Notes under the pieces: generated by a model
What the model was told of the DNA's origin: nothing
The model's input: the letters and a program-made list of their open reading frames with translations, nothing else
Database searches by the model: none
Assembly: GCA_902762785.1 (NCBI GenBank)
Contig: CACWPL010000018.1
Coordinates: 1-55,304 of the forward strand
DNA: 55,304 nucleotides
Direction of reading: 5' to 3'
Origin: an uncultured Ruminococcus sp.
GTDB lineage: Bacteria > Bacillota > Clostridia > Oscillospirales > Ruminococcaceae
Program-made: the position numbers and the translations under genes
Shown here: one piece after another, positions 1,731 to 26,633 of the stretch
How positions within the stretch are numbered: the first letter of the stretch is position 1
Layout of the letters: every line of letters begins with the position of its first letter

Positions 1731-1780
1731 AAATGACCTACTTTCTGCGGCAGCGGCCGCTGCTGTGCTGCGATAAGATA

Positions 1781-1807
1781 GCTCCCCCCGGGTCGGCCGG
1801 GGGGAGC
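1781..1807 (-). terminator. Hairpin after pspA (partial terminator?)
   Basis: A perfect 11-bp GC stem (1781-1791 with 1797-1807) with a 5-base loop sits 20 bases after the pspA stop on the minus strand. Only a weak U-rich tail (TATCTTATC) follows. It may lower expression of ybjN and fur relative to pspA instead of ending all transcription. Confidence 0.5.
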
Positions 1808-1827
1808 CTGACTTGCTGGGGGAACGA

Positions 1828-2607: not shown

Positions 2608-2701
2608 GATAGTTCCTCCATTCATGCAGACGATGCGGCAGATGCGCCGCGAAGACTGGCTTTGTCAGGCAGTCGGCAGAACGTCTCTGCCGCGTATCTC
2701 T

Positions 2702-2730
2702 ATCATACCATATTTTATTGAAAATGTCAA
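2702..2730 (-). promoter_or_regulatory. Sigma-A promoter of pspA
   Basis: On the minus strand TTGACA (2725-2730) and TATGAT (2702-2707) are separated by exactly 17 bases, about 95 bases upstream of the pspA start. A perfect -35 box makes this a strong housekeeping promoter. No sigma-54 type (GG-N10-GC) element, as used by enterobacterial psp, is seen. Confidence 0.8.
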
Positions 2731-2788
2731 TGGCCACGGACATTTTTCCACATGTCCGCCCTGCGGGGGCTCCGCTGCCCCTCCCGCC

Positions 2789-2817
2789 TTGACAGGGAGC
2801 ATCTCCTATGGTATACT
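2789..2817 (+). promoter_or_regulatory. Sigma-A promoter of the LRR gene array
   Basis: TTGACA (2789-2794), a 17-base spacer and TATACT (2812-2817) lie about 80 bases upstream of the first LRR gene. It is divergent from the pspA promoter, 58 bases away. The three LRR genes that follow have gaps of 33 and 24 bases and no terminator between them, so this promoter probably drives all three. Confidence 0.8.
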
Positions 2818-2899
2818 AGAGATATGACCAGAAACACGCGCGATACCGCGTGCGGATATGTCCAAAATACACAGATAACACAGGAGGGAGGGGCTATCC

Positions 2900-4765: not shown

Positions 4766-4798
4766 GTCAAAAAAGTCTACATAAAGGAGGGGATGGCC

Positions 4799-6016: not shown

Positions 6017-6040
6017 GTCTGAAAAAAGGAGGAAATGGCC

Positions 6041-7974: not shown

Positions 7975-8865
7975 TCATAGCCGCCGCGCCGTGTCCTCCA
8001 AAAGACCGCGGCGGCGCATCTCATCGACGATGTGGATATACGCCTCCTTTTCGCCGCACTGCGACGCCTCCTCCGCGAGGGCGGGGAGGACCTTGTCGGG
8101 GACGCGGTCGCGCGACGGGAGCAGGGCGCACAGATAGGCCGTCTCGCCGTGCCGGATGAACATCCTGGCGATGACCCCGCCGTAGTACAGGAGCGCCCTT
8201 TGCGCCCCGGCATCCGTGGGGGCCTGCCGGTCCATCTCCATGAGGCAGACGGCGAACGTGAGCGTCGGGACCAGGAGCGGCTGGAGGAGCTCGCCCGAAA
8301 GGACGCGCAGCGCACGGCAGACGTTCCGCTCGACGTTCCCATCCTCCCGGAGGCAGCGGAACGGGACAGCGACCCCGCCGAGGGCGATGGTCAGGCGCGG
8401 ATCACTGTCGCTGAAAGCGCCGCTGCGGATCTCCTGGACGGGCGCGGAGAAGGTCAGCGTGCGCAGGGAGAGGCACCGCGCGAACGCGAACTCGCCGATC
8501 ATCTCGACCGTGGCCGGGATCGTGAGCGTCTCGAGGGCGTGGCACCCGTAGAACGCAGTATCGCGGATCTCCCGGAGACCGTCCGAGAGGGTGACGTGCG
8601 TGAGGGCGCGGCAGCTGCGGAAGCAGTCCTTGGGCAGGAGCGCGACGCCCGCGGGGATGTTCACGTCCGTGAGGGACGTGCAGCGGCGGAAGGCGCTCTC
8701 CCCGATGGCGGTGATCGTGTCGGGGAGGTGGACGGACGTGATGGCCTCCTGTCCCCGGAAGGCCTCGGCGTGGATGTAGCGCATCCCCTCCGGCACCGTG
8801 ACCGCGCCCCCGCTGCCGCGGTAGCCGTTCACAGTGATGCGTTCGGTGATGAGGTCGCCCTTCAT
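7975..8865 (-). CDS. BspA-type leucine-rich repeat protein 4 (296 aa), divergent copy
   Basis: A 296-residue relative of the three tandem LRR proteins on the opposite strand. It has about 6-7 LRR_5 repeats (residues 20-170) and the same C-terminal helical region, ending IVDEMRRRGLLEDTARRL. The N-terminal cap differs (MKGDLITERITVNGYRGSGG), so it is a more distant copy. The start ATG 8865 is preceded by AAAGGAG, and a good promoter lies 34 bases further up. No signal peptide. It converges on the plus-strand array, and the 230 bases between them hold hairpins. Confidence 0.82.
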   Translation of the reverse strand: MKGDLITERITVNGYRGSGGAVTVPEGMRYIHAEAFRGQEAITSVHLPDTITAIGESAFRRCTSLTDVNIPAGVALLPKDCFRSCRALTHVTLSDGLREIRDTAFYGCHALETLTIPATVEMIGEFAFARCLSLRTLTFSAPVQEIRSGAFSDSDPRLTIALGGVAVPFRCLREDGNVERNVCRALRVLSGELLQPLLVPTLTFAVCLMEMDRQAPTDAGAQRALLYYGGVIARMFIRHGETAYLCALLPSRDRVPDKVLPALAEEASQCGEKEAYIHIVDEMRRRGLLEDTARRL

Positions 8866-8898
8866 GGCGATGGCTCCTTTCTGTGTGGGTATGGTCTC

Positions 8899-8927
8899 AT
8901 TATAGCACGTTCGGGACCGTTTGTCCA
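8899..8927 (-). promoter_or_regulatory. Promoter of LRR gene 4
   Basis: On the minus strand TGGACA (8922-8927), a 17-base spacer and TATAAT (8899-8904) precede the gene start by about 34 bases. Confidence 0.75.
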
Positions 8928-9023
8928 GAGAGAGGGCGTCCGTTCGGTTGTGCAGATCCACTAGAACTGTCCCCGCACACGGTACATTTGCGCGTCATAG
9001 ACGTACAAAATCGATCACACCCC

Positions 9024-12373: not shown

Positions 12374-14065
12374 TCATGCCTTCAGGGCCGCGGTGAACGT
12401 GTCATCGGTGCAGGAGAGCTTCAGCTTCATGCGGCACGCCTTCGCGGCACGGTCGGCGAGGGAGAGGCCGAGACCGCTGCCGGTCTTGCCGGTGCGGGAG
12501 GCGTCGCCCTTCGCGAAGGGACGCTTGAGGTCGGTCACGTCCACGCGGGCGGCCACCGAGTTCGCGACGGTCAGGCCGAGCGGGCCGGATGTCACGGTGA
12601 TCGTCCCGCCGTCGGGGGTGTACTTGACGGCGTTCGAGATCAGGTTCTCCACGGCCGTCTCCAGCAGGGCGGCGTCCGTGATCAGCGTCCCCTTGCCGGA
12701 CGTCTCGACCCGGATGCCCCGCTCCTCGAGCAGCACCCGGTACGGCGCGAGGCACTTTTCCGCGACCGCCGCCAGCGCGACCGTCTCATGGTGCCCCGCG
12801 CAGTCGGGCATGTGGTCGAGCGCGAGCGTCCGGGAGATGATGCCGTCCGTATATGCCACATTGTCCATGATCGCCTGCAAATACCGCTTGCGCTCTTCGT
12901 CGGTGAGCCGGCCGTCCATCAGATTCTCCGCATAGCCGCCGATGGCCATGAGGGGGGTCTTGACGTCGTGGGCGAGGTCATTGGTCAGGGCACGCTGGAA
13001 GTCCTCCTGCGCATAGGCGGCCTTCTTCTTCGTATAGATGAGCGCCGTCACCACGAGCCAGATCAGCAGGACTGCGGCGATCTCGAGGATCATGTCGCGC
13101 TTGAACATCTGATCCACAGCGTCCGGCCAGGTGTCCACGAGGAAGCGGTCGGCGAGCAGGTATGTCTCCCCGCCGAAGCGGACGGGGCGGTCGAGGGTGA
13201 GCAGGAGACGCCCGTCCTCGGTGTAGTTTGTGAGATGGGTGGACCAGCCGGAGCGCCAGTCCTGCATCTCGAACGTGTCAGAAAATGCCATGAACACGCC
13301 CTTCTTCGTCCCATGCATCGCCGCCCGGAACGCGCGGGGATACGAGTCGCCCGTGGCAGTATCGGTCACGATCAGCTCCATAGCCGGGTCGTCATAGTCG
13401 ATGGTGAACGGCTCGCCCTCGAGAAACTCATGCTCGCCGGTGCTGTACTCGATGACGCCGGTGTGCGGGAGGAAGGTGTGCGTCTTGGGGTCGGCATAGA
13501 CGGAATCGAGGCGGATGGCGGCGAAGGAGTCCCCATGGGTGTTCTCGATGACGTCGGTGAGGAGGCGGTCGAGGCCGGGGTGCTCATAGGCGGACGGGTC
13601 GCAGGAGTACCAGCCGTTGCGGGGGTCGGCCTTGTCGTAGATGATGCCGGTGAGCAGCGCCTCCTCGGAGGAGGCGGCGAGGGAGCCGTCCTCGGCGATG
13701 AGGGCGGAGAACGCCTCGCATCCGTCAAAATACTGCGGCACGATCTGGATCATGCCCTGATTCCCGCCGGTGACGAAGTCGCTCACGACGTCGTCGATGA
13801 CGATGTCATAGCCGGTGCCGAGGGCGAGCTCGATCTGTGCCTCGTTGAGGGAGCCGCCCTTGTCGTCGAGGCGGAGCAGATCGCGCTCGAGGTCGGTGAT
13901 GTCCTCCTCGATGGCGGCCATCGCGCCGGTGTGGATCTTGCGCGAGATGTGGTCATAGGTCGCCCAGACGATCAGCGCCGCCGCCGGCACCGCGATGACC
14001 GCGCCGCGCAGCAGGATGCCAAAAAAGCCGATGCGCCTTTTGTGCTGTCTTGTGTTCTTTTTCAT
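12374..14065 (-). CDS. Sensor histidine kinase
   Basis: A 563-residue membrane sensor kinase. It has a first membrane helix near residues 12-36, an extracytoplasmic sensor region of about 290 residues, a second membrane helix near 325-347, and then the kinase core. The phospho-acceptor H-box is DLAHDVKTPL (His near 367), the N-box is ENLISNAVKYTP, and the G-box is GSGLGLSLAD. There is no clear HAMP domain between the second helix and the H-box. The start MKKNTRQ at 14065 follows GGAGG; a start five codons earlier overlaps that site. It sits 42 bases downstream of its response regulator. The signal is unknown; the sensor region matches no family I can name. Confidence 0.93.
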   Translation of the reverse strand: MKKNTRQHKRRIGFFGILLRGAVIAVPAAALIVWATYDHISRKIHTGAMAAIEEDITDLERDLLRLDDKGGSLNEAQIELALGTGYDIVIDDVVSDFVTGGNQGMIQIVPQYFDGCEAFSALIAEDGSLAASSEEALLTGIIYDKADPRNGWYSCDPSAYEHPGLDRLLTDVIENTHGDSFAAIRLDSVYADPKTHTFLPHTGVIEYSTGEHEFLEGEPFTIDYDDPAMELIVTDTATGDSYPRAFRAAMHGTKKGVFMAFSDTFEMQDWRSGWSTHLTNYTEDGRLLLTLDRPVRFGGETYLLADRFLVDTWPDAVDQMFKRDMILEIAAVLLIWLVVTALIYTKKKAAYAQEDFQRALTNDLAHDVKTPLMAIGGYAENLMDGRLTDEERKRYLQAIMDNVAYTDGIISRTLALDHMPDCAGHHETVALAAVAEKCLAPYRVLLEERGIRVETSGKGTLITDAALLETAVENLISNAVKYTPDGGTITVTSGPLGLTVANSVAARVDVTDLKRPFAKGDASRTGKTGSGLGLSLADRAAKACRMKLKLSCTDDTFTAALKA

Positions 14066-14107
14066 AGTGATGACCTCCATTCTATCCTAGCAAAGGCGAT
14101 GTGGGCG

Positions 14108-14779
14108 TTACCCCTCCGTCATCCGATACCCCCGCCCGACGAGCGTCCGGATCTGGGCGCCGGCGGGGCCGAGGGCACGGCGGAGCTTTTTGATGTGCGT
14201 ATCGACGACGCGGTCGCTGCCGAAGTAGTCCATCCCCCAGACGCGGTCGAGCAGGGTCTCGCGGGAGACCGTCCACCCGGGGTGGCGCATGAGGTAGAGC
14301 AGGATGGCGAACTGCTTCGGCGGCAGGTCGAGCTCGGTGCCGTCCACCGTGCAGATGAGGCGGCGCGTGTCGACCGTGATGGCGCCGCAGACGAGGCGGT
14401 CATCGCAGACCGTGCCGCCCGCCCGCCGCAGCAGCGCCTCGCACTTGGCATACAGCGCCGACAGCAAAAACGGCTTGACGACGTAATCATCGCACCCGAG
14501 GTCATAGCCGGAGAGGATGTCCTCCTCGCGGCCGCGGGCGGTGATGAAGACGAGGGGGATGTCCGTCCGGCGGCGGATCTCGCGGCAGATGGTGAAGCCG
14601 TCCGCGCCCGGGAGCATGATGTCGAGCAGGACGAGGTCATAGCCTTTCAGGCCGGTGCGCACGAGGTCGAGCGCGGCCGCCCCGTCCTGCACGGTCTCCA
14701 CGGCGGCGCCGCGTGCGGTGAAATAGTGCCGGATGACCTCGCAGATCTGCGGGTCGTCCTCGATCAGCAGCAGCTCCAT
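14108..14779 (-). CDS. OmpR/PhoB-family response regulator
   Basis: A 223-residue response regulator. The receiver domain (1 to about 118) has the acidic pocket IEDD, the phospho-acceptor Asp in VLLDIMLPGADG (near residue 47), the Thr of FITA and the Lys of VVKPF. The C-terminal winged helix (about 125-222) contains the RVVDTHIKKLRR recognition helix and the closing GRGYRM motif. The start ATG 14779 follows AAAGGAGG. It is the first gene of a two-gene operon with the histidine kinase. Two adjacent 11-bp direct repeats upstream suggest that it controls its own operon. Confidence 0.95.
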   Translation of the reverse strand: MELLLIEDDPQICEVIRHYFTARGAAVETVQDGAAALDLVRTGLKGYDLVLLDIMLPGADGFTICREIRRRTDIPLVFITARGREEDILSGYDLGCDDYVVKPFLLSALYAKCEALLRRAGGTVCDDRLVCGAITVDTRRLICTVDGTELDLPPKQFAILLYLMRHPGWTVSRETLLDRVWGMDYFGSDRVVDTHIKKLRRALGPAGAQIRTLVGRGYRMTEG

Positions 14780-14802
14780 GGGATCGCCTCCTTTCATGTA
14801 CT

Positions 14803-14837
14803 AGGATACACCGTCCGTGTGTCCTTCGTGTGTCCTT
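14803..14837 (-). promoter_or_regulatory. Likely autoregulated promoter with OmpR-type direct repeats
   Basis: The 11-base unit CGTGTGTCCTT (plus-strand reading) occurs twice head to tail at 14816-14826 and 14827-14837, one helical turn apart, as OmpR-family dimers usually bind. On the minus strand a TATCCT -10 box (14803-14808) sits just downstream, and where the -35 box should be (14826-14831) there is no consensus, so the promoter probably needs the bound regulator. It is 24 bases upstream of the response regulator start. Confidence 0.5.
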
Positions 14838-14880
14838 GGGAGGTCTTTTCAAGGACTTTTCGGGGACGGCGGACGAGACC

Positions 14881-14909
14881 GCCCGGCACATCCCCAAGGC
14901 GTGCCGGGC
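14881..14909 (-). terminator. Terminator-like hairpin after the STAND-HEPN gene
   Basis: GCCCGGCAC (14881-14889) pairs perfectly with GTGCCGGGC (14901-14909) around an 11-base loop, just after the stop codon of the minus-strand ATPase. The tail is only weakly T-rich. Confidence 0.55.
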
Positions 14910-14915
14910 GTGCTG

Positions 14916-16469
14916 TCAGGAGATATGCCGAAGGATCTCCATGCAGTAGGAATTGATGATCTGCTGGTCCTCGGGCGTGTAGACGCGCTCGACGGAGCCG
15001 TGGACGACGGGGTTGCGTGCCTCGCCGCACTTTTTGAGCTTCTTATCCCATGTCTTCAGGAGATCATCATGGAACTCGCTGTGGAACACCGACCAATGCG
15101 CGCGGATGATCCTTGTCGCGTCCTCGAGGGACATCACGTTCAGCGCGGTCTCGTGGGCATTGAAGTCGCGGTTGGTCGCGTAGATCATCCATTTATAAGA
15201 CTTGGGGTCGAAGTGTTTGCCGCTGAGCTTTTTCCAGTCGAACGTCAGGATGTCGAACCACATCTCGTCGCCGGTCTTTGTCGTGCCGACGGCGCGGGCC
15301 AGCTCGTCCCGGTGCGTATCGAGCATCGCCTTGAGCTTCCGCTCGAGCGTGCTGAAATTGTTGAGCACGTCGTTCGAGACCGTCGCCCGGAGCAGATATT
15401 GCTTGAAGCCGGCCGAGAAGGGCAGGTATTCCTTGCCGTTGTCGATGACGTAGTTCAGGCTGATGAGGAGCTTGAGGTCCTCCGTCGTGACCAGATAGGC
15501 CGGGCCGATGATGGTCGCGACGAGCTTCTCGGCGAGGCTCACGCCCTTGCGGTCGCGGTCGAGGCCGAGGCACTTGTAGATGGAATCGTGATAGCCTCCG
15601 ATCGTGGAGAGGAGGGCAGAGGTGTCGAAGACGTTCTGGACGGGGAGCGCAGGCTCACCGCTGAGCTGGCGCTCAGCGAGCTCGTAGCCGACACACGACC
15701 AGAGATACGGCGAGCTGCCGCAGTGCGCCCGGATGAAGCCCGTGTCGGTCTCGGAGAGGGGGCGGCCGTAGTCGGTCTCGAGGATGCGGCAGTATTCGGC
15801 GATGTCCTCCTCCGTGAAGCCCTTGATGGGGAAGGGGTACATGACGCCCTTGAAGGAGGAGTTGTTCGGGTCGACGAACTCGATCATGCTCAGCTCCTGC
15901 CGCGAGACGGTGACGAGGCAGACCGAATACTCGGCGCTCGCCGTCAGCGAACGGAACAGCTCGAAATCGGCCTTGCTGGTGAAGACCTCGCGCGCCGCAT
16001 CGAACTCATCGACCACCAGCAGCACGGTCAGACCGGCATGCTTGACCCAGGTGAACACCTTCTGGAAGCTCATGCGGAGATAGGGGTCGGAGAGGTCGAG
16101 CGAGAGATGCTCCCGGATCTTCTTGCGGACCCTGGGGATCTCGGACCCTTCAAGGGTCTCGAGCCGCTCGTCGAGCTCGCGGACGATGACCGAGAGCAGC
16201 GCGGCGAAGCGCGTCTCGGCGTTCGTGTTGAACTGCTTGAGATCAAGGTAGAGGCAGATCAGGCCGGGATCCTTTTCCCGGAGCTGCCGGATGGTCTCCT
16301 TGACGACCGAGGTCTTTCCCATCCGATAAAGGCCATAGACATAGATGCCGCCTGTGGCCCGGAGCTTTTGCTCCGTCATGTGGACGAGCGTCTCGATCTT
16401 GTCACGGTAGCCGATCATGTGCGCACCGTAGACCTCGCCGCCGGTCAGAAAAATGTTGTTAGTCCTCAT
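14916..16469 (-). CDS. STAND-type ATPase with C-terminal HEPN-like motif
   Basis: A 517-residue protein. The N-terminal P-loop ATPase has a Walker A in YVYGLYRMGKTS (residues about 43-54) and a Walker B LLVVDEFDAA (about 152-161), of the archaeal-ATPase/STAND type used in signalling and defence. A winged-helix-like middle follows. The C-terminal 130 residues are helical and end with EARNPVVHGS, where Arg485 and His490 fit the Rx4-6H signature of HEPN ribonucleases. This is a reading of the motif, not a search result. The start is ATG 16469, 3 bases after the stop of the giant upstream gene, whose 3' end holds its ribosome binding site (AGAGGA), so the two are co-translated. Suggested role: effector of a two-protein conflict or stress system. 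Confidence 0.75.
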   Translation of the reverse strand: MRTNNIFLTGGEVYGAHMIGYRDKIETLVHMTEQKLRATGGIYVYGLYRMGKTSVVKETIRQLREKDPGLICLYLDLKQFNTNAETRFAALLSVIVRELDERLETLEGSEIPRVRKKIREHLSLDLSDPYLRMSFQKVFTWVKHAGLTVLLVVDEFDAAREVFTSKADFELFRSLTASAEYSVCLVTVSRQELSMIEFVDPNNSSFKGVMYPFPIKGFTEEDIAEYCRILETDYGRPLSETDTGFIRAHCGSSPYLWSCVGYELAERQLSGEPALPVQNVFDTSALLSTIGGYHDSIYKCLGLDRDRKGVSLAEKLVATIIGPAYLVTTEDLKLLISLNYVIDNGKEYLPFSAGFKQYLLRATVSNDVLNNFSTLERKLKAMLDTHRDELARAVGTTKTGDEMWFDILTFDWKKLSGKHFDPKSYKWMIYATNRDFNAHETALNVMSLEDATRIIRAHWSVFHSEFHDDLLKTWDKKLKKCGEARNPVVHGSVERVYTPEDQQIINSYCMEILRHIS

Positions 16470-16472
16470 AGT

Positions 16473-19400
16473 TCAATTTCCTCTTTTCAGATAGACCCGG
16501 AGCAGGTCTACCAGGATATAGCATTCCTCGCCCTCCCGAACGAGCACCTTGCGCAGGAAGAGCTGGTCGAGCAGCATGCGCTGGTGGTCGGCGGTGGGGA
16601 CGGAGAGCGACGAGATGCAGTCGATGTCGCTGATACGGATGCGGTCGTTTTGGTTGCAGTGTGCCGCGATATAGGTCAGCAGGGTCTTGTTGTCCTGCCG
16701 GATCTTATCTTCGTTCGCAAAGAAGCAGGGGTCGACGAGCTGGGCGTCGAAATAGTTGTCATCGAGCGCGGCGGCGTTCGAGGGGCTGAAGAGGAACTTG
16801 CTGACGAAGCTCTCGACCGTGATCTTCGTCACACGGGACGTGCCGCGATCGTTCATGTAGTCGACGAGACGGTCACAGAAGATCATGATGAGATAGGCGC
16901 TGCCCGCTGTGAGCCGGTAGATGAGGTCGACGGCGTCCTCGTCGAAGCGGCTCTTGCCGTCGAGCAGGATGGGGTCGGTGATGAGGTGCTTGGCGCTCTC
17001 CTCATCGAGGTAGCTGACGGGCATCTCCTTCATGCAGGCGAAGTCGTTGGCATACTCCTCCACGAAGCGCTTCATGCTGTCCTGCCCGATGACGATGGAG
17101 CAGATGTCGCGATTCTGGAGCAGCGCCTTCCAGAAGTGCGGGAAGCTGTCGTCGCAGCGCCCGCGCTTGATGTGCTCGTAGATGTAGGTGAACTCATCGA
17201 GGAAGAGCATGATGACCACGTTCTTCGGCCGCAGGGCACGCTCGATCTGCTCGAGCATGAGGTTGAACATGGGCGACTTGGGATCGGAGGCGATCGTCTG
17301 CGCCGCTTGGAAAAAGGAGCACTTCTTCTCGATCTCGTCATAGATGTCCGGGTCGTAGAGCTCGATCGCGGTCTCGAGCTTACTGATGAGCGTGCTCTTG
17401 ATCGAATCGGCGGACTGTTCGTTCTCGCCGACGCTGCCGAGGTCAACGATGAGGTAGCGGCCGGGATAGGCCTCCTCGATGCGCTTGCGCAGGTGCGCCA
17501 TGATGGAGCTCTTGCCGGCACGCTTCTGGCCGTAGATGTAGATGCCGCGGTGGGAGAGCACGCTGCCCGCGCCGATGTCGAGGCTCTCCACGATCTGCTC
17601 GATCTCCTTTTTGCGGCCGAAGAACATCTCGTCCGAGGTGACGGCGCCGCTGTCGGTGTAGGCCTTGTACTTGTTCTCGATCTTTTGGAACGCGGCGATG
17701 TTGGAGAGGTTGACCTGGAACACATCGCTGAAGGTCTCTTTGATCACCTCGCCGGAGCCGTCGTGGTAGCTGTAGTCGAAGGAGAAGCGCAGGTCGAGGA
17801 GGGTGCGCTCCTTCTCCTTCTCCGTGAAGGAGACAGCGACCTTGTATTCCTCCTTGCCCCTGCCGTGGACGGCCGTCACGGGATGGTCGGCCTCGCTGGC
17901 GACCTCGACATTGCCGCCCATGCCGGTCAGACGGATATTGGAGATGTCCGCCTTCTGGACATTGCCCTTGTTCTCGAGATAGAACGTCACCGCGGCCTTG
18001 TGCTCGGCCTCCTTGTAGAAGGCGGTCGGCTCCGGGCAGACCTCCAGCTTCGGCGCAGACTCGGCGTAGAGGGCGTTCTTCATGGCGCCCGCACGGCCTT
18101 TGAGCATGGAGACGGTATCCAGCATCCATTCATAGGAGAGGGCGGTGGGTGCTTCGAGGATCCTCCGCTCGAGGGACTCGCAGAGGTCGATGGCCTTGTC
18201 GAGCGCGTCCTCCCGGTCATCGACCATGGTGAGCTCGCGGGATTCCTGGAACTGCCGCAGGATCCTGCACATCTGGCGAAGATGGTCATCGTCGGTCTTG
18301 CAGAGGAAGGCGCCGGTGTCGAGACGGTCGATCCTGGTGAGGATCTCCTTGAGCTGCTCGGGCGCCTCGATGCTCCGGGAGATGCCGCCGAGCGTGCGCT
18401 CGAGGCCGCGCAGATCCTCGTTGTAGCGGTCCTTCGCCTTTCTCCAGTAGTCAAAGAAAGCGTCTTTGTTCGGGAGCGCCGGCGGCGTGTCCCGGAGGAA
18501 GCCGGAGAGCCATCCCAGGACGGCGGCGCGGAGCTTCTCGTGCTTGTAGACCGCGTCGATCATCCTGCGGACCTGGCCCGGGTAGTAATAGCGATAGCGG
18601 ATGACCAGTTCAAAGCTGCACGTCATCAGCTCCTTGACGGACAGGACGGTCTCCTGATAGGGCGGCGGCGTGAAGTCCAGGGCCGCGTCACGCGTCTGCT
18701 CGACGGCATCGGCCATCTCATTGTCCGAGAGGAAGAAGGAGCGGTAGAGCAGCAGGAAAGCATGGACGAGCGCGGGACTGCTCAGCGCGGGACCGCTCTT
18801 GCGGGACGGGGGCGACAGGAACCGCAGCGCGAGGAAGTAGTGATACCGATAGCTGTCCCGCACCAGGAAGGAACGCTTGACCTCGTCATCGGCGCGGCAT
18901 ATGAGCGCCTGGGCATAGAACTTCCCGGGCGTGGGGACGGCGTTCTTCTGGCCGCTGTCCGCGAACTGCTTGCTGATCCTGGCGAGCGCCAGATAGATCT
19001 GGCTCTGCTCGGCGAGGGAACGCTTGGCGCCGGCGAGGCTCTTGCGGACGACGTCTTTGATGTCTGCCGCGGCCTGTGCCGCATCGCCGGCATAGCGGCG
19101 CTTCGTCTCATCGAGGGAGTTCAGGATGCGCTGGCCGTAGAACGCCTTCTCGAGATCGACCTCGCTGAGCATACGGTCGAGCAGCTTGGGGATGGTGGTG
19201 TCGGTGTCCTCATAGCCGAAGCCGGCATCGCCATCCGTATCCTCGAGGGAGAGGGCCGTCTCGCTGCCGGCGGAGGAATAGGTGTCGTCGAGGATCTGCT
19301 GTGCCACGCTGTCGTTGCTGTTGCGGCGGAGGAGGCCGGCGGCGATCTGCTTGGCCTCTTCGGCCCTGCCGGACTGGTGATACAGGATCGCCAGATTCCG

Positions 19401-21767
19401 ATCCACCGTGGTCTCGTGCCGCGTGAGCGCGGCGATCACGGTGCTCGCAGTGATGGACGAGCGGTCGAGGGCGAAGAGACGCTTCCACTGCTGGAAGGTG
19501 TCGATCGCCTTCTCTCTGTCGCCGTTCTTCTGGTAGAGGGAGGCGAGGCGCATGAGGTAGCCCAGCTTGTGGTCGGTGCGGTAGGTGCTGCCGATCAGCT
19601 CGGTCAGATAGCGCTCGGCCTCCTCGAACGACCCGCCCTGCTCACGCGCCTGGATCTGGTAATTGTGGTAGGTCAGATCATCGAGCTTCGACCGATACTG
19701 GTCCAGCAGCGCGAGCGCCTGGGCGTGATCTTCCATGCGGAGGCAGCAGTTGATGAGCTGCTTGATGCGGTGGGACGCAGCGCGTCCGGCGCTGGGGATC
19801 ATCTCCTTGAGGAGCGCGATCTCCTCTTCGTACTGCCGCTCCTTCTCGAGGATGTCGATGAGCTGGTTCCGATACTTTTCCTCGCCGATCGTGCGGCGGT
19901 AGGTCTCCAGGATCTGCCGCGCGTCCTCGTGCCGGTCGGCCTGCTTGTAGATCATCGTCAGGTTGAGGGCGGCGGTGTTGACGGCCTCCATCGGAGGATG
20001 GGCAGCGAGCACGGCCTTGAAGCACGCCTCGGCCTTCTCGAGATCCTTCACGACCGTGAGATAGTGGGTCCCTTTTTTCAGCAGATCGGCGACGGATCCA
20101 TCGGGCGCTGCCTTTGGGACGGAGGGGAGCGGCGCGGGCGTTCGCGGCGCTGCGGCGGGCACATCGCCCTTCCAGACCGGCAGCGCTCTGTATGGGTGCG
20201 TGCAGGGCTCGAGCATCTGTGTCTCGAGCACATCGCGTTTTTGGAGGAACGTCTCGTACTGCTGCTCCGTGACGCGGGGGCGATACGTCTCGATCAGCGC
20301 CGGCTCTCTCTCCGCGTCGATCCAGACCTTCAGCGCGCGGTGCTTTTGATGCTCCTGGATGCCGATGAAGCGGACGGCCGTCTCACGGATATGCATATTG
20401 TCATGGAGATAGGCACGCAGCATCGGGTCGATCACGCAGTTATCCCAGAAGGCATAGTTCCGTCCGTCGAACTGGATCCGGCCAAAGAGGTGGCCGTTGG
20501 CATCGTAGTCCCCATAGCTGACGAGCACGCCATCCTTGACCTCGAAGCTGTCCTTTGGGGTACCGACCGCGCGGATGCAGTCGGCGGCCATGCCCTTCAT
20601 GCCGACGCCGAGCGTGAAGGAGACCTGGGGATACGGCTTGATCTCGTTCCAGAGCATGTCCCGCAGCACATCGTCCTCGACCTGGCGGATGTTGAGATAC
20701 AGAGACGTGCTTCTGTTCCATTTGATGAAGCCGTATGTGCGCTTCCAGAATTGGATGGTGCCCTGATAGCGCTGCTCGCCGGGAGCGGCGGGGGTGTCCG
20801 GCACATCCGGCTGCTGTACAGGGCGGGGGAGACGATGCGTATCGGACGGCAGCGTCCCGATCGGCAGCACCTGCGGCTTTCTCCGACGGGCACGATGGCG
20901 GATCGCCTTGAACAGCACGGGCAGCAGCTCCCGCTTGGAGCCGGAGACGCCATCGAGGTCGTCGAGCGTGGCAGAATAGCGTGAGAGCAGGGCGAGAAGC
21001 CCCCGGTAGAGCGCCTCTGCACAAGGCTCGTCGAGCGCCGCGGGATCGATCCGCTTGGACACATGGACGATGTCCTGTCCGTCCTTGAAGGTATAGAGCA
21101 GGTAGCACAGCGAGGTGAGGACTGCTGCATCGAACGGGTCGCCGGCCGCGATCAGACAGAGCAGCTCCGTGAGCGCGCGGTCGTCCCTCCCGGCCTTGGA
21201 GGCAGCGCAGGCGGCGTGGTAGTGGTCGCCGCCGAGATGGAAGGCATCGGCCGCCTCGAGATGGCGCCCGAGCGATGCAAGGACGAGACCCTCGGTGATC
21301 AGCAGCTCCGGGCCCTCCGGCAGATCGGCAAGCGCGGCGAGGAGCTGATCGCCCTTCTCCTCGAGGGCGTGGTTCTTTTGGGCATCGGCGAAGGCGTTCA
21401 TGACACGCTCCCATGTGTGATGATAGGGGCTGGCCTTCATCCTGCTGCGCAGCGCCTTCGTCTGGTCGACGGGCGCGATGCAGAAGGAGAGCGCGTCCAC
21501 GGCGGCCTTGGCCTCCTCCTGCCAGTACGTCACGTCCTGCGTCTTGACAGCGGGCGCTGCAGGCGCGGCAGAGAGCGACAGGTCGAAGGAGATATTGTCG
21601 ATCTGTTCATACTGGAACGCCGCAGGCAGGCCGTTCGACAGCACCTTGACCGCACTGTCGAGATACTTCACGAAGCGCAGCGGGCCCGTCCATCGGCCGT
21701 TGATCTGTAGGATAAAGGGCAGCGACTCGGCGCCCTCGAGCGTCGCCTGGATATCGTCTTTCGTCAT
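16473..21767 (-). CDS. Giant TPR / cold-shock-like / STAND ATPase protein (1764 aa)
   Basis: The largest gene in the window. Reading from the start MTKDDIQATLEG (ATG 21767, after GGAGGGAACGAG): an N-terminal region with helical repeats (about 80-290); two consecutive cold-shock-like beta barrels, the first with GTIQFWKRTYGFI (about 334-403) and the second with GRIQFDGRNYAFWDN (about 413-486); a long TPR array (about 540-880); a helical region to about 1250; an immunoglobulin-like beta domain (about 1270-1370); and a P-loop ATPase with Walker A YGQKRAGKSS (about 1409) and Walker B MLFLDEFTYIY (about 1520), ending in a winged-helix region. No signal peptide or membrane segment. The ATPase resembles that of the downstream STAND-HEPN protein, so the two may interact. 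It has its own perfect promoter. Domain limits are approximate. Function unknown; a sensor role is inferred. Confidence 0.75.
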   Translation of the reverse strand: MTKDDIQATLEGAESLPFILQINGRWTGPLRFVKYLDSAVKVLSNGLPAAFQYEQIDNISFDLSLSAAPAAPAVKTQDVTYWQEEAKAAVDALSFCIAPVDQTKALRSRMKASPYHHTWERVMNAFADAQKNHALEEKGDQLLAALADLPEGPELLITEGLVLASLGRHLEAADAFHLGGDHYHAACAASKAGRDDRALTELLCLIAAGDPFDAAVLTSLCYLLYTFKDGQDIVHVSKRIDPAALDEPCAEALYRGLLALLSRYSATLDDLDGVSGSKRELLPVLFKAIRHRARRRKPQVLPIGTLPSDTHRLPRPVQQPDVPDTPAAPGEQRYQGTIQFWKRTYGFIKWNRSTSLYLNIRQVEDDVLRDMLWNEIKPYPQVSFTLGVGMKGMAADCIRAVGTPKDSFEVKDGVLVSYGDYDANGHLFGRIQFDGRNYAFWDNCVIDPMLRAYLHDNMHIRETAVRFIGIQEHQKHRALKVWIDAEREPALIETYRPRVTEQQYETFLQKRDVLETQMLEPCTHPYRALPVWKGDVPAAAPRTPAPLPSVPKAAPDGSVADLLKKGTHYLTVVKDLEKAEACFKAVLAAHPPMEAVNTAALNLTMIYKQADRHEDARQILETYRRTIGEEKYRNQLIDILEKERQYEEEIALLKEMIPSAGRAASHRIKQLINCCLRMEDHAQALALLDQYRSKLDDLTYHNYQIQAREQGGSFEEAERYLTELIGSTYRTDHKLGYLMRLASLYQKNGDREKAIDTFQQWKRLFALDRSSITASTVIAALTRHETTVDRNLAILYHQSGRAEEAKQIAAGLLRRNSNDSVAQQILDDTYSSAGSETALSLEDTDGDAGFGYEDTDTTIPKLLDRMLSEVDLEKAFYGQRILNSLDETKRRYAGDAAQAAADIKDVVRKSLAGAKRSLAEQSQIYLALARISKQFADSGQKNAVPTPGKFYAQALICRADDEVKRSFLVRDSYRYHYFLALRFLSPPSRKSGPALSSPALVHAFLLLYRSFFLSDNEMADAVEQTRDAALDFTPPPYQETVLSVKELMTCSFELVIRYRYYYPGQVRRMIDAVYKHEKLRAAVLGWLSGFLRDTPPALPNKDAFFDYWRKAKDRYNEDLRGLERTLGGISRSIEAPEQLKEILTRIDRLDTGAFLCKTDDDHLRQMCRILRQFQESRELTMVDDREDALDKAIDLCESLERRILEAPTALSYEWMLDTVSMLKGRAGAMKNALYAESAPKLEVCPEPTAFYKEAEHKAAVTFYLENKGNVQKADISNIRLTGMGGNVEVASEADHPVTAVHGRGKEEYKVAVSFTEKEKERTLLDLRFSFDYSYHDGSGEVIKETFSDVFQVNLSNIAAFQKIENKYKAYTDSGAVTSDEMFFGRKKEIEQIVESLDIGAGSVLSHRGIYIYGQKRAGKSSIMAHLRKRIEEAYPGRYLIVDLGSVGENEQSADSIKSTLISKLETAIELYDPDIYDEIEKKCSFFQAAQTIASDPKSPMFNLMLEQIERALRPKNVVIMLFLDEFTYIYEHIKRGRCDDSFPHFWKALLQNRDICSIVIGQDSMKRFVEEYANDFACMKEMPVSYLDEESAKHLITDPILLDGKSRFDEDAVDLIYRLTAGSAYLIMIFCDRLVDYMNDRGTSRVTKITVESFVSKFLFSPSNAAALDDNYFDAQLVDPCFFANEDKIRQDNKTLLTYIAAHCNQNDRIRISDIDCISSLSVPTADHQRMLLDQLFLRKVLVREGEECYILVDLLRVYLKRGN

Positions 21768-21822: not shown

Positions 21823-21851
21823 ATTATAGCATATCGAACGAAGAATGTCAA
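21823..21851 (-). promoter_or_regulatory. Consensus promoter of the giant ATPase operon
   Basis: On the minus strand a perfect TTGACA (21846-21851), a 17-base spacer and a perfect TATAAT (21823-21828), about 56 bases upstream of the start codon. Full consensus suggests strong, possibly repressor-controlled, expression. Confidence 0.85.
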
Positions 21852-21940: not shown

Positions 21941-21969
21941 TTGACAGGGGAGACGTCATCCTGTATAAT
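21941..21969 (+). promoter_or_regulatory. Consensus promoter of the MoxR-DUF5682-VWA operon
   Basis: A perfect TTGACA (21941-21946), a 17-base spacer and a perfect TATAAT (21964-21969), 43 bases before the MoxR start. It is divergent from the equally perfect promoter at 21823-21851. Between them lies a TGTCCC/GGGACA inverted repeat (21907-21924), a possible operator. Confidence 0.85.
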
Positions 21970-22012: not shown

Positions 22013-23122
22013 ATGGAGCAACACCTCATCAAGCCGCCGGTGGAGCAGCGCTGCGCCGACGAGCTCGCGTTCCTCAAGGAGACCGACACCGGCCGCCGCC
22101 CCGAGAACTGGCAGCTCTCGCCGAAGGCCGTGCGCACCTTCATCCTCGGCGGCACCGTCAAGGCCGCGGACGGCCGCAGCATGGACATCCCCCGCAAGTT
22201 CTACGGCAACGACGCCCTCGTCGAGCGCTGCATCATCACCCTCGCGGGGAGCCGCGGCCTGATGCTCGTCGGCGAGCCGGGCACAGCCAAGACGATGCTC
22301 TCCGAGCTGCTGTCCGCCGCCATCTGCGGCACCAGCACCAACACCGTCCAGGGCACCGCCGGCACCACCGAGGACATGATCAAGTATAGCTGGAACTACG
22401 CCCTCCTCCTCGCCAAAGGTCCCTGCCGTGAGGCGCTCGTGCCGTCGCCGCTGCTGATCGGCATGGAGCGCGGCATCTTCGCACGCTTCGAGGAGATCAC
22501 CCGCACGCCCGCCGAGATCCAGGATTCCCTCATCTCCGTCATGAGCGACCAGATTCTGAACATCCCCGAGCTGGGCGACGAGGGACTCGTCTTCGCGCGT
22601 CCCGGCTTCAACATCATCGGCACCGCCAACACCCGCGACAAGGGCGTCAACGAGATGTCCGGCGCGCTCAAGCGGCGCTTCAATTTCGAGACCGTCGCGC
22701 CCGTGGGCGATGTCCGGCTCGAGCGCGAGATCATCCTCCGTGAGGCCACCGACCTCGCCCGTGCGGGACACATCGACTGTCCCGTCGATGAGGACGTCGC
22801 GGAGCTGCTGGCCGTCACCTACCACGAGCTGCGCGAGGGCATCACCGACACCGGCAAGCTCATCGAGAAGCCCGCCGCCGTCATGAGCACCGCCGAGGCC
22901 GTGTCCGTCTATTTCCAGACTCTGTGTCACGCGTGGTACTACGGCGACGGCACGATGGAGCTGCCCGTGCTGACGGAAAATCTCCTCGGCGCGGTCTGCA
23001 AGGAGAGCACCGACGACCTCGCCCGTCTGCGCAGCTACTTCCAGACGGCGGTCAAGGACAAGAGCACGCGGGAGGGCGGCATATGGAAAGAATACCTCAA
23101 AACAGCGTCAGTCTTGCGGTGA
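22013..23122 (+). CDS. MoxR-family AAA+ ATPase (DUF5682/VWA cluster)
   Basis: A 369-residue AAA+ ATPase of the MoxR/RavA type. Walker A is GEPGTAKT (residues 87-94), and an AAA core follows with the sensor-1 region around IIGTANTRDKG and the KRRFNFE segment. MoxR proteins act as chaperone-like ATPases that usually work with a VWA-domain partner; one is encoded two genes downstream. The start ATG 22013 follows AAAGGAGG. The 3' end overlaps the DUF5682 gene by 40 bases, so the genes are co-translated. The pairing with DUF5682, VWA and SWIM genes is a recurring neighbourhood in bacteria (known to me chiefly from actinobacteria), without a proven function. Confidence 0.9.
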   Translation: MEQHLIKPPVEQRCADELAFLKETDTGRRPENWQLSPKAVRTFILGGTVKAADGRSMDIPRKFYGNDALVERCIITLAGSRGLMLVGEPGTAKTMLSELLSAAICGTSTNTVQGTAGTTEDMIKYSWNYALLLAKGPCREALVPSPLLIGMERGIFARFEEITRTPAEIQDSLISVMSDQILNIPELGDEGLVFARPGFNIIGTANTRDKGVNEMSGALKRRFNFETVAPVGDVRLEREIILREATDLARAGHIDCPVDEDVAELLAVTYHELREGITDTGKLIEKPAAVMSTAEAVSVYFQTLCHAWYYGDGTMELPVLTENLLGAVCKESTDDLARLRSYFQTAVKDKSTREGGIWKEYLKTASVLR

Positions 23123-25497
23123 CGGAGCCGGACCTGACGGCGCCGGTCGTCTTCTTCCCGATCCGGCATCACAGCCCCGTCTGCGCGTGGCAGCTCCGGC
23201 GGCTCATCGAGGCGTATGGGCCGTCGTGCATCCTCGTGGAGGGGCCGGAGAATGCGAACGGCCTCCTGCCCATCCTCACCGACCCCGCCACCGAGCTGCC
23301 CGCCGCGCTCTACTATTTCTACCACGACAAGAAAAAACGCCTCTCCGACGAGGGGCGCGGCTATAGTTGCTATTATCCCTTCGTGTATGCGTCCCCCGAG
23401 CATACCGCGCTGACGGTCGGGCGGGGAAATGGCGTCCCTGCGTATTTTATCGACCTGCCGTATCACGACATCCTCCTCCACACGAAGGACGCCAATGGCC
23501 TGCGCCGCGACCAGGAGCGCCACAGCTACACCGACGACTCCCACCTCACGAGCGCGGCGTTCTACAAGGCCGTCTGCGAAAAGACGGGCGTGCGGAGCTT
23601 CGAGGAACTCTGGGAGAAGCGCTTCGAGATCGGGGGACTGCGGCTCGAGCCGGGCGCGTTCGTGAGGCTCATGCTGACCGACTGTCTCATCGCACGCGAG
23701 CTGACTCCCCCGGACGTCCTCGAGGCGGACGGCACCCTCGTCCGCGAGCAGCACATGGCCTTCCGCATCCGGGAGGCGATGGCGGTCCATCCGCGCGTGC
23801 TCGTCGTCACGGGCGGCTTCCATACGCCTGCGCTGATGGAACGTATCCAAAAAAAGGAAAAGGACGTCCACATGGCCTCCGTCCCCGCCGACCAGCAGGG
23901 GTGCTATGTGATCCCGTATTCCTACGAGGCCGCCGACGCGCTGCGGGGCTATGCCTCGGGGATGCCGCACCCCGGGTATTATGACCGCATCTACCAAACG
24001 ATGACCGTGCGCGGGACGGCCGAGGGCGTCTATGCGGACGTGGGACTGGCGCTCCTGACCGAGACGGCCAAGGCGTGCTCCGAGAAGGACCTCCCGCTCT
24101 CGATCGCCGACGTCACCGCCGCATGGACGGCCGCACAGGGACTGGCCGCGCTGCGGGATTCCACCGCCCCCGGCTACGCGGAGATCGCCGACGGCGTGAC
24201 GTCCGCGATGGTCAAGGGCGAGCTGACGGCGGCATCGTCCCTCCCGCTGCGCCTGCTCTCGGCCGCCGCGACCGGCACCGGGATGGGCCGCATCGGCGAC
24301 CGCAGCCATGTCCCGCCGCTCGTGCAGGACTTTGAGCGGGCGTGCGCGAAGTATCGCCTGAAGATCGCGACGATCGTCCCCGCCGACGCCGAGACCGCGC
24401 TCTTCACGAGCGAGCGCGAGCTGGAAAAGAGCCGATTCTTCCACCGGATGCGGATGCTGGAGACGGGCTTTGCCGAGCGAAAGGCCGGTCCCGACCTGCA
24501 CGGCTCGCGCGACCGCAGCCGCGTCCGGGAGCTGTGGCGCTACGCCCGAACGCCTGCCGTCGATGCCGCCCTCATCGACCACACCACCGACGGCCAGACC
24601 CTCGCGGAGGCCTGCCGCGGCACGGCGTCGCGGAGGATCGCGGCGTCCGGCCGGAGCGGGACGGCGGCGCATGTGATGGTCGACTGCTTCCTCGCGGGCA
24701 TCACGCTCGCGCCCGAGGACGTGGCCAAGACGGAGCGTCTGCTCGCGGAGGACGGCGACTTCTTCTCCCTCGGCGAGGGCCTGCACGCGTTCGACATGCT
24801 CTACGACCTGCGCACGCTCTACGGCTTCGAGGACCCTGCCGTCCGGCAGTATCTCGAACGCTGCTTCTCCAAGCTGATCGTGCTCGTGCCGACGATGGGC
24901 GCCGTGCAGCCGGAGCAGGCGGGCGCGTGCATCAAGATCCTGCGTGCCCTCTTCGGCACTGCCGGCCGCACCCTCCCGCACCGCATGGACGAGCTGCGCA
25001 CCGCGCTCGAGGCACTGGCCGGCGCGCCGCAGAAGGAGCCGTCCGTCCACGGGGCGGCGATGGGGCTATTGTATGCGATCGAGCCGTCCCGTCTGGCGGA
25101 CGCGGAGCGTGCGATGCGGGGCTATCTCCAGGGCGCGGCGTCGTACCGCAAGCAGGGCGCGCTCTATTTAAAAGGACTCTTCGAGACCGCCCGCGACATC
25201 GCCCTGACCGACACCGCGTTCATCCGCATGACGGACGAGCTGCTCGCGGGCATGGACACGGACGACCTCATGGAGGTGCTGCCCTCGCTGCGCCTGGCCT
25301 TCTCGTGCTTCGCGCCGCAGGAGACGCAGACCATCGCGGACGCCGTCGCCGCGCTCCACGGGCTCCGTGCGGACCGCATCCTCTGGGAAAAGGCCGCCGA
25401 CGAGGCCCTCGCCGCGTTCGGCGCGGAGGTGGATGCGGCAGTGTTCCGGGTGCTGCGGCAGGAAGATGTCATACCAGAAAGGAGCGATGCCCCATGA
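23083..25497 (+). CDS. DUF5682-family protein
   Basis: An 804-residue protein of the DUF5682 family. The family hallmark near the N-terminus is FFPIRHHSPVCAWQLRRL, followed by ILVEGPENA; conserved stretches such as VVTGGFHTPAL come near residue 245. The first ~280 residues suggest an alpha/beta domain with conserved His and Glu, possibly an enzymatic (TraB/PrgY-like) fold; this is inference. The rest is helical. The start ATG 23083 lies inside the MoxR gene after a GGGAGGG site; an earlier in-frame start would need a long Arg-rich shadow of MoxR and is rejected. It ends with a 4-base overlap (ATGA) with the VWA gene. Function unknown. Confidence 0.85.
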   Translation: MERIPQNSVSLAVTEPDLTAPVVFFPIRHHSPVCAWQLRRLIEAYGPSCILVEGPENANGLLPILTDPATELPAALYYFYHDKKKRLSDEGRGYSCYYPFVYASPEHTALTVGRGNGVPAYFIDLPYHDILLHTKDANGLRRDQERHSYTDDSHLTSAAFYKAVCEKTGVRSFEELWEKRFEIGGLRLEPGAFVRLMLTDCLIARELTPPDVLEADGTLVREQHMAFRIREAMAVHPRVLVVTGGFHTPALMERIQKKEKDVHMASVPADQQGCYVIPYSYEAADALRGYASGMPHPGYYDRIYQTMTVRGTAEGVYADVGLALLTETAKACSEKDLPLSIADVTAAWTAAQGLAALRDSTAPGYAEIADGVTSAMVKGELTAASSLPLRLLSAAATGTGMGRIGDRSHVPPLVQDFERACAKYRLKIATIVPADAETALFTSERELEKSRFFHRMRMLETGFAERKAGPDLHGSRDRSRVRELWRYARTPAVDAALIDHTTDGQTLAEACRGTASRRIAASGRSGTAAHVMVDCFLAGITLAPEDVAKTERLLAEDGDFFSLGEGLHAFDMLYDLRTLYGFEDPAVRQYLERCFSKLIVLVPTMGAVQPEQAGACIKILRALFGTAGRTLPHRMDELRTALEALAGAPQKEPSVHGAAMGLLYAIEPSRLADAERAMRGYLQGAASYRKQGALYLKGLFETARDIALTDTAFIRMTDELLAGMDTDDLMEVLPSLRLAFSCFAPQETQTIADAVAALHGLRADRILWEKAADEALAAFGAEVDAAVFRVLRQEDVIPERSDAP

Positions 25498-26633
25498 CGC
25501 CCGAGGAACGAACGGTCGACCGCTGGCGGCTGGTGCTGGGCAAGCAGAGCGACCGCGCCCTGCCGTTCGGCGGGGACGGCCAGGAGACGGCGCGTCTCAC
25601 GCAGATGGAGGACCTGCTCGAATACCTCTACGGCCGCGCGGCGGGGGACGATGTGCGGCAGGAGGGCACGTCGCGCGAGGGCGGCCAAGGCCCCTCGACC
25701 CTCCAGACCGCCGACTGGATCACGAGGGTCCGCGAGCTCTTCCCCCAGCAGACCGCCGACGTCCTCGAAAAGCACGCCCTCGAGGAGTTCGGCCTGACGG
25801 AGCTCCTGACCGACAAGGAGGTCCTCGAGAAGATGACGCCGGACATGGAGCTGCTGCGGATGGTGCTCCAGCTAAGGCACCTGATGCGCGGGGAGGTGCT
25901 CGAGGTCGCCAAGCGCGTCGCGGCGAAAGTGGCCGAAGAGCTGCGAAAAAAGCTCGAGGACAGCGTGCGGCGCTCCCTCCTCGGCCGCATCGACCGGAGC
26001 CTGTCGAGCCCCGTCCGCTCGGCGCGGAACTTGGACATCCAAAAGACCATCCGCCGCAACCTCAAGCACTACGACCCCGAGCGCGGCCAGCTCATCCTCG
26101 AGGACGTCTATTTCAGCGGCCGCGTCAAGCGGCACAGCAAATGGCGCGTGATCCTGGCGATCGACGAATCCGGGTCGATGCTGGGGTCGGTCATCCACGC
26201 GGCGGTGATGGCGCAGATCCTCGCGAAGCTGCCGTTCGCGGACGTGCGTCTGGTCATTTTTGACACGAACGTCGTCGATCTCTCCGGGCAGGTCGAGGAG
26301 CCGGCGGAAGTGCTGATGAGCGTGCAGCTCGGCGGCGGCACGGACATCGGGCGCGCGCTCGGCTACTGCGCCGGCCTCATCGAGGCGCCCGCCCGCACGG
26401 CCGTCTTCTGCGTGACCGACCTCTACGAGGGCGGGTCGCGGGACGTCCTCCTGCGCACGGCCAAGGGCATCCTCGAGAGCGGCGCGCGCCTGAACTTCCT
26501 CACCGCCCTCGACGAGACCGCCGCCCCGGTCTTCGACCGCGTCCTCGGGCAGCAGCTCGCGGACATGGGCGCCTTCGTCGGTGCCCTCACCCCCGAGCAG
26601 ATGGGGGCCTACATCGGGCGGATGATCGGGTAG
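25494..26633 (+). CDS. VWA (von Willebrand factor A) domain protein
   Basis: A 379-residue cytoplasmic protein: an N-terminal helical region (1 to about 200) and a C-terminal VWA domain with an intact metal-ion-dependent adhesion site: DESGSM (Asp224, Ser226, Ser228), the Thr of GGGTDIG, and a late Asp in CVTDLYEGG. VWA proteins of this type are partners of MoxR ATPases, which remodel or load metal or substrate on a client. The start ATG 25494 overlaps the DUF5682 stop (ATGA) after AAAGGAG; the much longer open frame upstream is an out-of-frame shadow of DUF5682. It is immediately followed by the 89-bp tandem array. Confidence 0.9.
   Translation: MTPEERTVDRWRLVLGKQSDRALPFGGDGQETARLTQMEDLLEYLYGRAAGDDVRQEGTSREGGQGPSTLQTADWITRVRELFPQQTADVLEKHALEEFGLTELLTDKEVLEKMTPDMELLRMVLQLRHLMRGEVLEVAKRVAAKVAEELRKKLEDSVRRSLLGRIDRSLSSPVRSARNLDIQKTIRRNLKHYDPERGQLILEDVYFSGRVKRHSKWRVILAIDESGSMLGSVIHAAVMAQILAKLPFADVRLVIFDTNVVDLSGQVEEPAEVLMSVQLGGGTDIGRALGYCAGLIEAPARTAVFCVTDLYEGGSRDVLLRTAKGILESGARLNFLTALDETAAPVFDRVLGQQLADMGAFVGALTPEQMGAYIGRMIG

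Follow-up and report, generated by a model that had tools for sequence, protein, structure and literature searches.

Two adjacent genes on the minus strand of a 55,304-nucleotide stretch of DNA, here called the window, encode a giant protein of 1764 residues (P0001, gene 1) and a smaller protein of 517 residues (P0002, gene 2). An earlier note, made from the sequence alone, read them as a pair of related STAND-type ATPases in which a repeat-bearing giant is coupled to a potential HEPN ribonuclease, a design associated with prokaryotic immunity, and did not recognise the pair as a described system. The locus raises the questions of whether the two genes form a unit, whether the smaller protein ends in a HEPN domain, what the pair might do and how it relates to systems already predicted. 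We find the pair to be a real, conserved and rare two-gene system.

Organization of the gene pair

The two open reading frames lie on the minus strand as proposed, and the intergenic gap is exactly 3 bases (Table 1). GC3 is gene-like for both (0.88 and 0.86), and the predicted operon promoter ends about 55 bases upstream of the gene 1 start. Both genes are real and form one operon. The relatedness of the two ATPases also stands, as a search with P0002 finds the ATPase of P0001 (E=7.8e-7, 22% identity). An open frame of 2055 aa runs antisense to both genes on the plus strand (window positions 14817-20984); this is probably a compositional effect, an antisense frame arising from GC-rich codon use.

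Table 1. Features of the gene pair and their coordinates in the window
Feature	Position	Strand	Description	Basis
Gene 1 (P0001)	16473..21767	-	1764 aa, ATG at 21767	ORF, GC3, Pfam, homology to L064
Gene 2 (P0002)	14916..16469	-	517 aa; STAND-like ATPase and C-terminal HEPN-like domain	ORF, Pfam, homology to L064 partner
Sigma-70-type operon promoter	21823..21851	-	TTGACA, 17 nt, TATAAT, extended -10	12/12 consensus match, predicted
Probable ribosome-binding site of gene 2	16479..16483	-	GAGGA, within final codons of gene 1	sequence
P0001 N-terminal small barrel	21573..21767	-	residues 1-65	resemblance by eye
P0001 first cold-shock-like barrel	20574..20765	-	residues 335-398	CSD E=0.059, 13.7 bits, model positions 2-63 of 66: weak
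P0001 second putative cold-shock-like barrel	20343..20540	-	residues ~410-475	by eye only
P0001 TPR region	19458..20072	-	residues ~566-770	Pfam TPR_19 E=1.7e-7 and others
P0001 Ig-like beta-rich region	17703..18035	-	residues ~1245-1355, ahead of ATPase	alignment with relatives
P0001 C-terminal ATPase	16476..17642	-	residues ~1376-1764	FFGR, Walker A GQKRAGKSS at 1413, Walker B LFLDEF
P0002 ATPase	15660..16418	-	residues ~18-270; Walker A GLYRMGKTS, Walker B LLVVDEFD	AAA_16 E=3.6e-8
P0002 HEPN-like C-terminal domain	14919..15272	-	residues ~400-517	relatives' HEPN matches, Rx4H conservation, profile comparison
P0002 Rx4H motif	15000..15017	-	RNPVVH, residues 485-490	R485, N486, P487, H490 invariant in P0002, L064, L015

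Domain architecture of the two proteins

P0001 is laid out as a small N-terminal barrel, a cold-shock-like barrel, TPRs, a helical part, an Ig-like domain and a C-terminal STAND/AAA ATPase. The TPRs named in the earlier note are borne out by Pfam. Of its two cold-shock barrels, the first is retained as a weak CSD match, but the second finds no fitting Pfam match and is without profile support. A PDB search with the first barrel returned cold-shock-domain proteins only at E values of 0.69 and 1.5, ranked under two unrelated nuclease chains, and an AlphaFold single-sequence model of both barrels reached a pLDDT of 36.8. The Ig-like stretch likewise holds in part, since it aligns with relatives but has no fitting Pfam match in P0001. 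Judged by eye, the small N-terminal barrel is resembled by the start of another giant (L017, genome G086) and by that of the ORF just upstream of the giant at locus L064. No Pfam model matches this barrel in P0001 or L017, and L064 gives only weak matches (DUF6897, E=0.07; CusF_Ec, E=0.21).

STAND NTPases are marked by a GRExE-like N-motif, Walker A, Walker B and GxP. Read by eye, P0001 has GRKKE, Walker A and Walker B, with GSA at the GxP position, and P0002 has GYRDKIE, Walker A and B, and GSSP. AAA_16 matches above the Pfam cut-off begin at residue 1382 of P0001 and at residue 24 of P0002, and nSTAND1 matches P0001 under its cut-off. The P-loops of both ATPases are intact, and K52 and D154 of P0002 are invariant in the alignment of relatives (A1).

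Distribution and pairing of relatives

Relatives were assigned by sequence to classes that we label I, II and III. Class I giants share the Ig-like region, and their ATPase forms the very end of the protein, with 351-380 residues past Walker A in the 11 giants measured. The downstream side is visible for 12 of them: the window giant, L016/L017, L018-L024, L062, L063 and L064, where the G086 giant, spread over two contigs (L016, L017), counts as one gene. In the neighbour search all 12 adjoin a second ATPase gene directly downstream, in agreement with the expectation that the two genes occur together, and the pair is retained despite identities of only ~14-27%. The pairing of giant and partner ATPases is well supported by these comparisons of sequence. 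One further locus (L015, G370) shows the partner only, near a contig end and with a repeat-like N-terminus; it is included among the 13 class I partners and stands outside the 12 giants.

The closest relative, L064, comes from the same order and another family. Its giant aligns with P0001 over ~1500 positions (301 bits, 25% identity), and its 508-aa partner aligns with P0002 over the whole length (24% identity; E=3e-25 when the two sequences are compared directly). Window-type partners are also homologous to those of the type found at L018 (hhalign E=2.6e-21). Two loci show interruptions. At L064, the ORF with the small N-terminal barrel (137-535) and the rest of the giant (551-5404) share a frame and are separated by a stop. 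At L021 (2468-7387), the partner ATPase gene is interrupted by an insert of ~4.9 kb whose ORFs appear by eye to be Mu-type phage-like, with a Mor-like regulator and capsid- and protease-like products.

The system is sparsely distributed. Among 24 other genomes of the genus, P0002 found no match in 23 and a close copy in none; the sole match (G021) is weak (E=9.6e-4) and falls inside a distant giant with its own partner gene (L023). In the class sample, P0002 matched 3 and P0001 matched 7 of 391 genomes, the own genome included in both counts. A profile of the giant C-terminus, applied at E up to 1e-10, hit 16 of 398 genomes of the phylum sample and 8 of 375 of the order sample, again with the own genome included. 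From the 15 other genomes of the phylum sample 10 were taken, the five left out having frames of 380-393 aa; among those taken, L051 is not a giant. From the seven of the order sample five were taken, frames of 384 and 408 aa being left out, and L066 (758 aa) is not a giant. A scan of genome contigs for relatives yielded three loci. The giant at L053 reaches the edge of its contig, which puts its partner out of view. No relative was found in plasmids searched with P0002 and with the L020 giant, in phage records searched for both proteins, or in viral contigs examined by pattern scans, which work best at near relatives.

The C-terminal domain of P0002

The earlier note had read RNPVVH near the C-terminus of P0002 as the Rx4H signature of HEPN ribonucleases, and the motif is present there. 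Taken in P0002 alone, it is not significant (shuffle P of 0.33), and two further Rx4H strings lie in the final 110 residues. P0002 matches no HEPN profile even at E up to 10, and an AlphaFold single-sequence model of residues 350-517 is all-helical with a pLDDT of 42. These observations would suit another helical domain in which Rx4H occurs by chance. We regard this reading as very unlikely, for the aligned motif is retained in distant relatives and the L064 partner matches two HEPN profiles in the same region.

Across the class I partners, Rx4H occurs within the final 110 residues in 9 of 13, against 1.54 expected from shuffles, and its recurrence exceeds chance. The proposed conservation of Arg485 and His490 is upheld for these nine but fails in the other four: the L016 and L063 partners have no motif, that of L023 has a shorter spacing (RNLIH) and that of L024 has no Arg at this place. 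In the closest relative, RNPIAHG aligns to the RNPVVHG of the window. Two Pfam families match the C-terminus of the L064 partner under their curated cut-offs: HEPN_Swt1 (E=7.6e-4; 20.2 bits against a cut-off of 27.5) and HEPN_RiboL-PSP (E=1.1e-3). The L015 partner matches HEPN_Swt1 at E=0.06.

Profiles of the C-termini were further compared by hhalign with members of HEPN_Swt1, for which 9 of 12 matches were used. The window type gave P=0.0045 with five members and 0.013 with nine, and RN..H is in register with the nine-member alignment; the L018 type gave P=0.06 and 0.0023. The hhalign probabilities of these class I comparisons are low (0.9-12.6%). Control pairs gave 0.17-0.46 in four of five cases, the fifth being scored by a trivial 17-residue overlap, and the window-type and L018-type C-terminal profiles gave just 0.038 against each other. 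On the basis of the recurrence of Rx4H, the aligned RNPxxH, the sub-cut-off HEPN matches in relatives and the profile comparison, the C-terminus of P0002 is a probable HEPN domain, whose activity may have been lost in some branches.

Related architectures

Class II comprises nine loci (L042-L050) and class III three (L052, L054, L065). They resemble the window pair in that the gene next to a giant ATPase encodes a HEPN-like domain with Rx4H at its C-terminus: in all 12, a gene of 355-490 aa ending in RN..AH comes directly after the giant. The giants measure 1495-2273 aa, that of L047 being cut by its contig with 998 aa seen. Unlike P0002, the partners lack the Walker A pattern, and the P-loop of the giants is GGRQ.GK in the 11 checked of 12. 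Rx4H is present in 12 of 12 partners against 3.4 of 12 expected by shuffling. Class II and class III partners are mutually homologous (1.1e-12); against members of HEPN_Swt1 they score 1.8e-4 (probability 49%) and 3.6e-4 (37%). Between class I and class II/III, the partner profiles gave 0.007 (over 23 columns at the motif) and 0.099 for the window type, and 0.41 and 0.72 for the L018 type. As this comparison is weak, we do not claim homology of these partners over their whole length. When the P0002 C-terminus was aligned with two class III partners (A6), the motif did not line up, and this alignment was discarded. Class II/III pairs may be of the nSTAND2 type discussed below; five of their proteins were scanned without an nSTAND2 match, and three scanned against PADLOC gave no match.

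One of the class I loci, L024, lies on an Acinetobacter ursingii plasmid (NZ_MH220285.1, 6265-11788). Here, a type I methylase-specificity protein of 1323 aa has the class I ATPase as its C-terminal part, so that type I methylase and specificity domains are fused to the Ig-like/STAND ATPase and replace the TPR part. The partner is a second ATPase whose C-terminus retains the H, and not the R, of the HEPN motif. Its gene occurs in three Acinetobacter ursingii records and is in pieces in two of them.

The L024 fusion, together with its partner having H without R, would also fit a two-ATPase, ORC/Cdc6-like hetero-oligomer that couples a sensor to varied outputs and in which the HEPN-like domain, in this branch, serves for binding or oligomerisation and is not an RNase. 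The missing motif in the L016 and L063 partners points the same way, as does the marking of several HEPN families as without Rx4-6H in Table 1 of PMC3710099. Such a reading is nonetheless unlikely in our estimation, given that 9 of 13 class I and 12 of 12 class II/III partners retain Rx4H, beyond what a need for the fold alone would require.

In the same order as the window, L066 (4745-7018) encodes a 758-aa protein that unites a true CSD (E=2.8e-12) and an AAA_35 ATPase on one chain, with RRCPDH close to the C-terminus. The L066 and P0001 ATPases align weakly (E=0.002), and the protein is possibly a one-chain counterpart of the pair.

Genomic context

The window pair sits between a two-component system, recognised by eye, and a MoxR-DUF5682-VWA operon identified by Pfam; the other neighbours are metabolic or housekeeping genes, and the surroundings are not a classic defence island. 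The operon (22013-26633), divergent from the pair, encodes a MoxR AAA ATPase, a DUF5682 protein and a CoxE-type VWA protein, and a predicted promoter with a 12/12 match faces the MoxR gene at 21941-21969 on the plus strand. A functional link between the pair and this operon was considered and rejected: of the 24 other genomes of the genus, 13 have the MoxR gene, and the pair did not adjoin it in the 11 whose surroundings were seen, two of which extend just ~1-2 kb past MoxR. The queries used for MoxR started at 21956, ~19 codons ahead of the likely start. Elsewhere in the window, three tandem ORFs of 621, 407 and 568 aa with similar starts occupy 2900-7738; the first matches Pfam LRR_5 and encodes a leucine-rich-repeat protein of the BspA type, and the minus strand has another LRR_5 gene at 7978-8961.

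The neighbours of relatives favour a possible role in defence. A WYL or WCX gene lies near the pair in all four class I loci with profiled or annotated neighbours (L018, L019, L024, L062), and in L024 a type I R subunit is encoded directly upstream, with the WYL gene farther upstream. At L062, a 3130-aa giant and a 637-aa partner are followed by a third gene (13985-16849) with a WYL-like match just below the cut-off (E=2.2e-4). In class II/III, L042 and L043 have MrfA-like helicases nearby, L043 also a GmrSD gene, L046 a HerA-type ATPase and L065 a weak ResIII match. Scanned with the PADLOC models, P0001 gave no match and P0002 only mad8 (E=0.0047), over the ATPase; in neither PADLOC nor NCBIfam did a match come near a cut-off.

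An immune role of the pair is plausible, given how patchily it occurs and which genes lie near some of its relatives. The pair might instead belong to housekeeping or the stress response, for instance as an RNA system switched by cold or translation stress. Cold-shock-like and TPR parts, the ordinary neighbours in the window, the lack of P0002 matches in plasmids and that of either protein in phage records are in keeping with such a function. We nevertheless judge it quite improbable: a close copy is present in 0 of 24 other genus genomes (G021 holding one distant pair), yet MoxR is present in 13 of the same 24, and restriction or WYL genes lie near several relatives.

Comparison with predicted systems

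The nearest precedent is the nSTAND2 system (Kaur, Burroughs and Aravind 2021; PMC8195603), which the available portion of that paper presents as a predicted mobile two-gene operon whose proteins are both STAND NTPases. They are predicted to form a toroidal hetero-multimer in which one member is inactive and carries a fused GT4 or HEPN domain, and the window pair would act in a similar way. Two adjacent genes that both carry STAND cores are common to this system and the window pair, as to the other class I pairs (12 of 12 with the window), the nSTAND2 effector often being a HEPN RNase. In that same portion, however, the effector STAND is described as having eroded NTP motifs, whereas P0002 keeps GLYRMGKTS and VVDEFD, and the description contains no TPR/cold-shock/Ig giant of the kind present in the window pair. 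The nSTAND2 profile PF20702 matches neither P0001 (E up to 1) nor P0002 (E up to 10). It was found in 0 of 129 phylum genomes, the own genome included; as it gave zero matches anywhere, this count is no proof of absence. Among the relatives, only the L024 partner matches it (E=0.012). For the arginine finger conserved in both nSTAND2 proteins, a candidate SR that follows the Walker B strand can be read by eye in P0002 and in the partners of L064, L015, L016 and L024; it is absent in L018-type partners and not clear in the giants.

A second precedent is given by Anantharaman 2013 (PMC3710099), where, in the part of the source available, Swt1-like HEPN domains, mostly active, are reported in fusions with STAND-ATPase, TPR and S1, Npun_F6454 among them. 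Compared by description only, these proteins share with the window pair a parts list of Swt1-type HEPN, STAND ATPase, TPR and an OB-type RNA-binding domain; they differ in being fusions, whereas the window has two genes and two ATPases.

Looser likenesses exist to two further systems, each taken from the available part of its source. CoCoNuTs (PMC11090510) are NTPase systems with cold-shock-like OB folds, Ig-like domains, HEPN and predicted RNA targeting; they are built on a McrB GTPase and a McrC homologue with coiled coils and no STAND pair, and the likeness is one of analogy only. Neither protein of the window pair matches McrB, whether in Pfam (E up to 1) or in NCBIfam (E up to 0.1). In the BREX-related DUF499 systems (PMC12839542), HEPN is fused to a BrxC-related ATPase and accompanied by a methylase and a helicase; there HEPN is N-terminal on DUF499 and a TPR giant is lacking, and DUF499 in Pfam matches neither P0001 nor P0002. 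The available portions of PMC7159879, PMC13092281 and PMC10853773 contain nothing closer to the pair. A TPR/cold-shock giant with a STAND-HEPN partner appears in no title or abstract of the literature searched, which leaves most subscription papers outside it.

The suggestion that the pair is an undescribed system has to be tempered accordingly. The exact combination of a TPR/cold-shock/Ig giant and a STAND-HEPN partner with intact motifs did not turn up in the literature searched, but the kind has been predicted, both as a STAND-STAND operon with HEPN or GT4 (PMC8195603) and as HEPN-STAND-TPR-S1 fusions (PMC3710099). What sets the window pair apart is the intactness of both P-loops, the TPR/cold-shock-like giant and the lack of an nSTAND2 profile match; the kind itself has precedents.

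A model for the gene pair

On balance, we lean towards reading the pair as a self-contained, NTP-switched system that combines a sensor with a HEPN RNase effector and halts the cell or the invader. P0001 would be the sensor, its TPR and cold-shock-like parts binding a trigger that might be RNA or a foreign protein. Trigger binding would let its C-terminal STAND ATPase engage that of P0002 in an ATP-dependent hetero-oligomer, which would bring the HEPN domains of P0002 together as an active RNase. The activated RNase would then cut RNA, and the cell or the invader would be halted. What the analysis establishes is how the genes are organised, that their motifs are intact and that these are conserved; the RNase activity, the hetero-oligomer, the trigger and the defence role we infer.

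The front of the giants varies from the TPR/cold-shock arrangement of the window through proteins of ~3100 residues to the type I methylase-specificity module of Acinetobacter. A broader and more tentative idea, to which we give somewhat less than even weight, is that paired active STAND ATPases are a rare, taxonomically broad coupling module, in which one ATPase carries a giant front that is swapped and the other delivers a HEPN RNase. With both ATPases firing, unlike in nSTAND2, the module might act as a hetero-ring RNase switch, here with an RNA-type sensor.

Should the model be correct, the pair would add a two-gene STAND-HEPN lineage in which sensor and RNase each have an active ATPase. 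The giant sensors would be exchangeable, one of them being fused to type I modification machinery, and the compact operons would lend themselves to studying the activation of a HEPN RNase by a STAND pair. The lineage may also connect the predicted nSTAND2 operons, the HEPN-STAND-TPR fusions and restriction systems.
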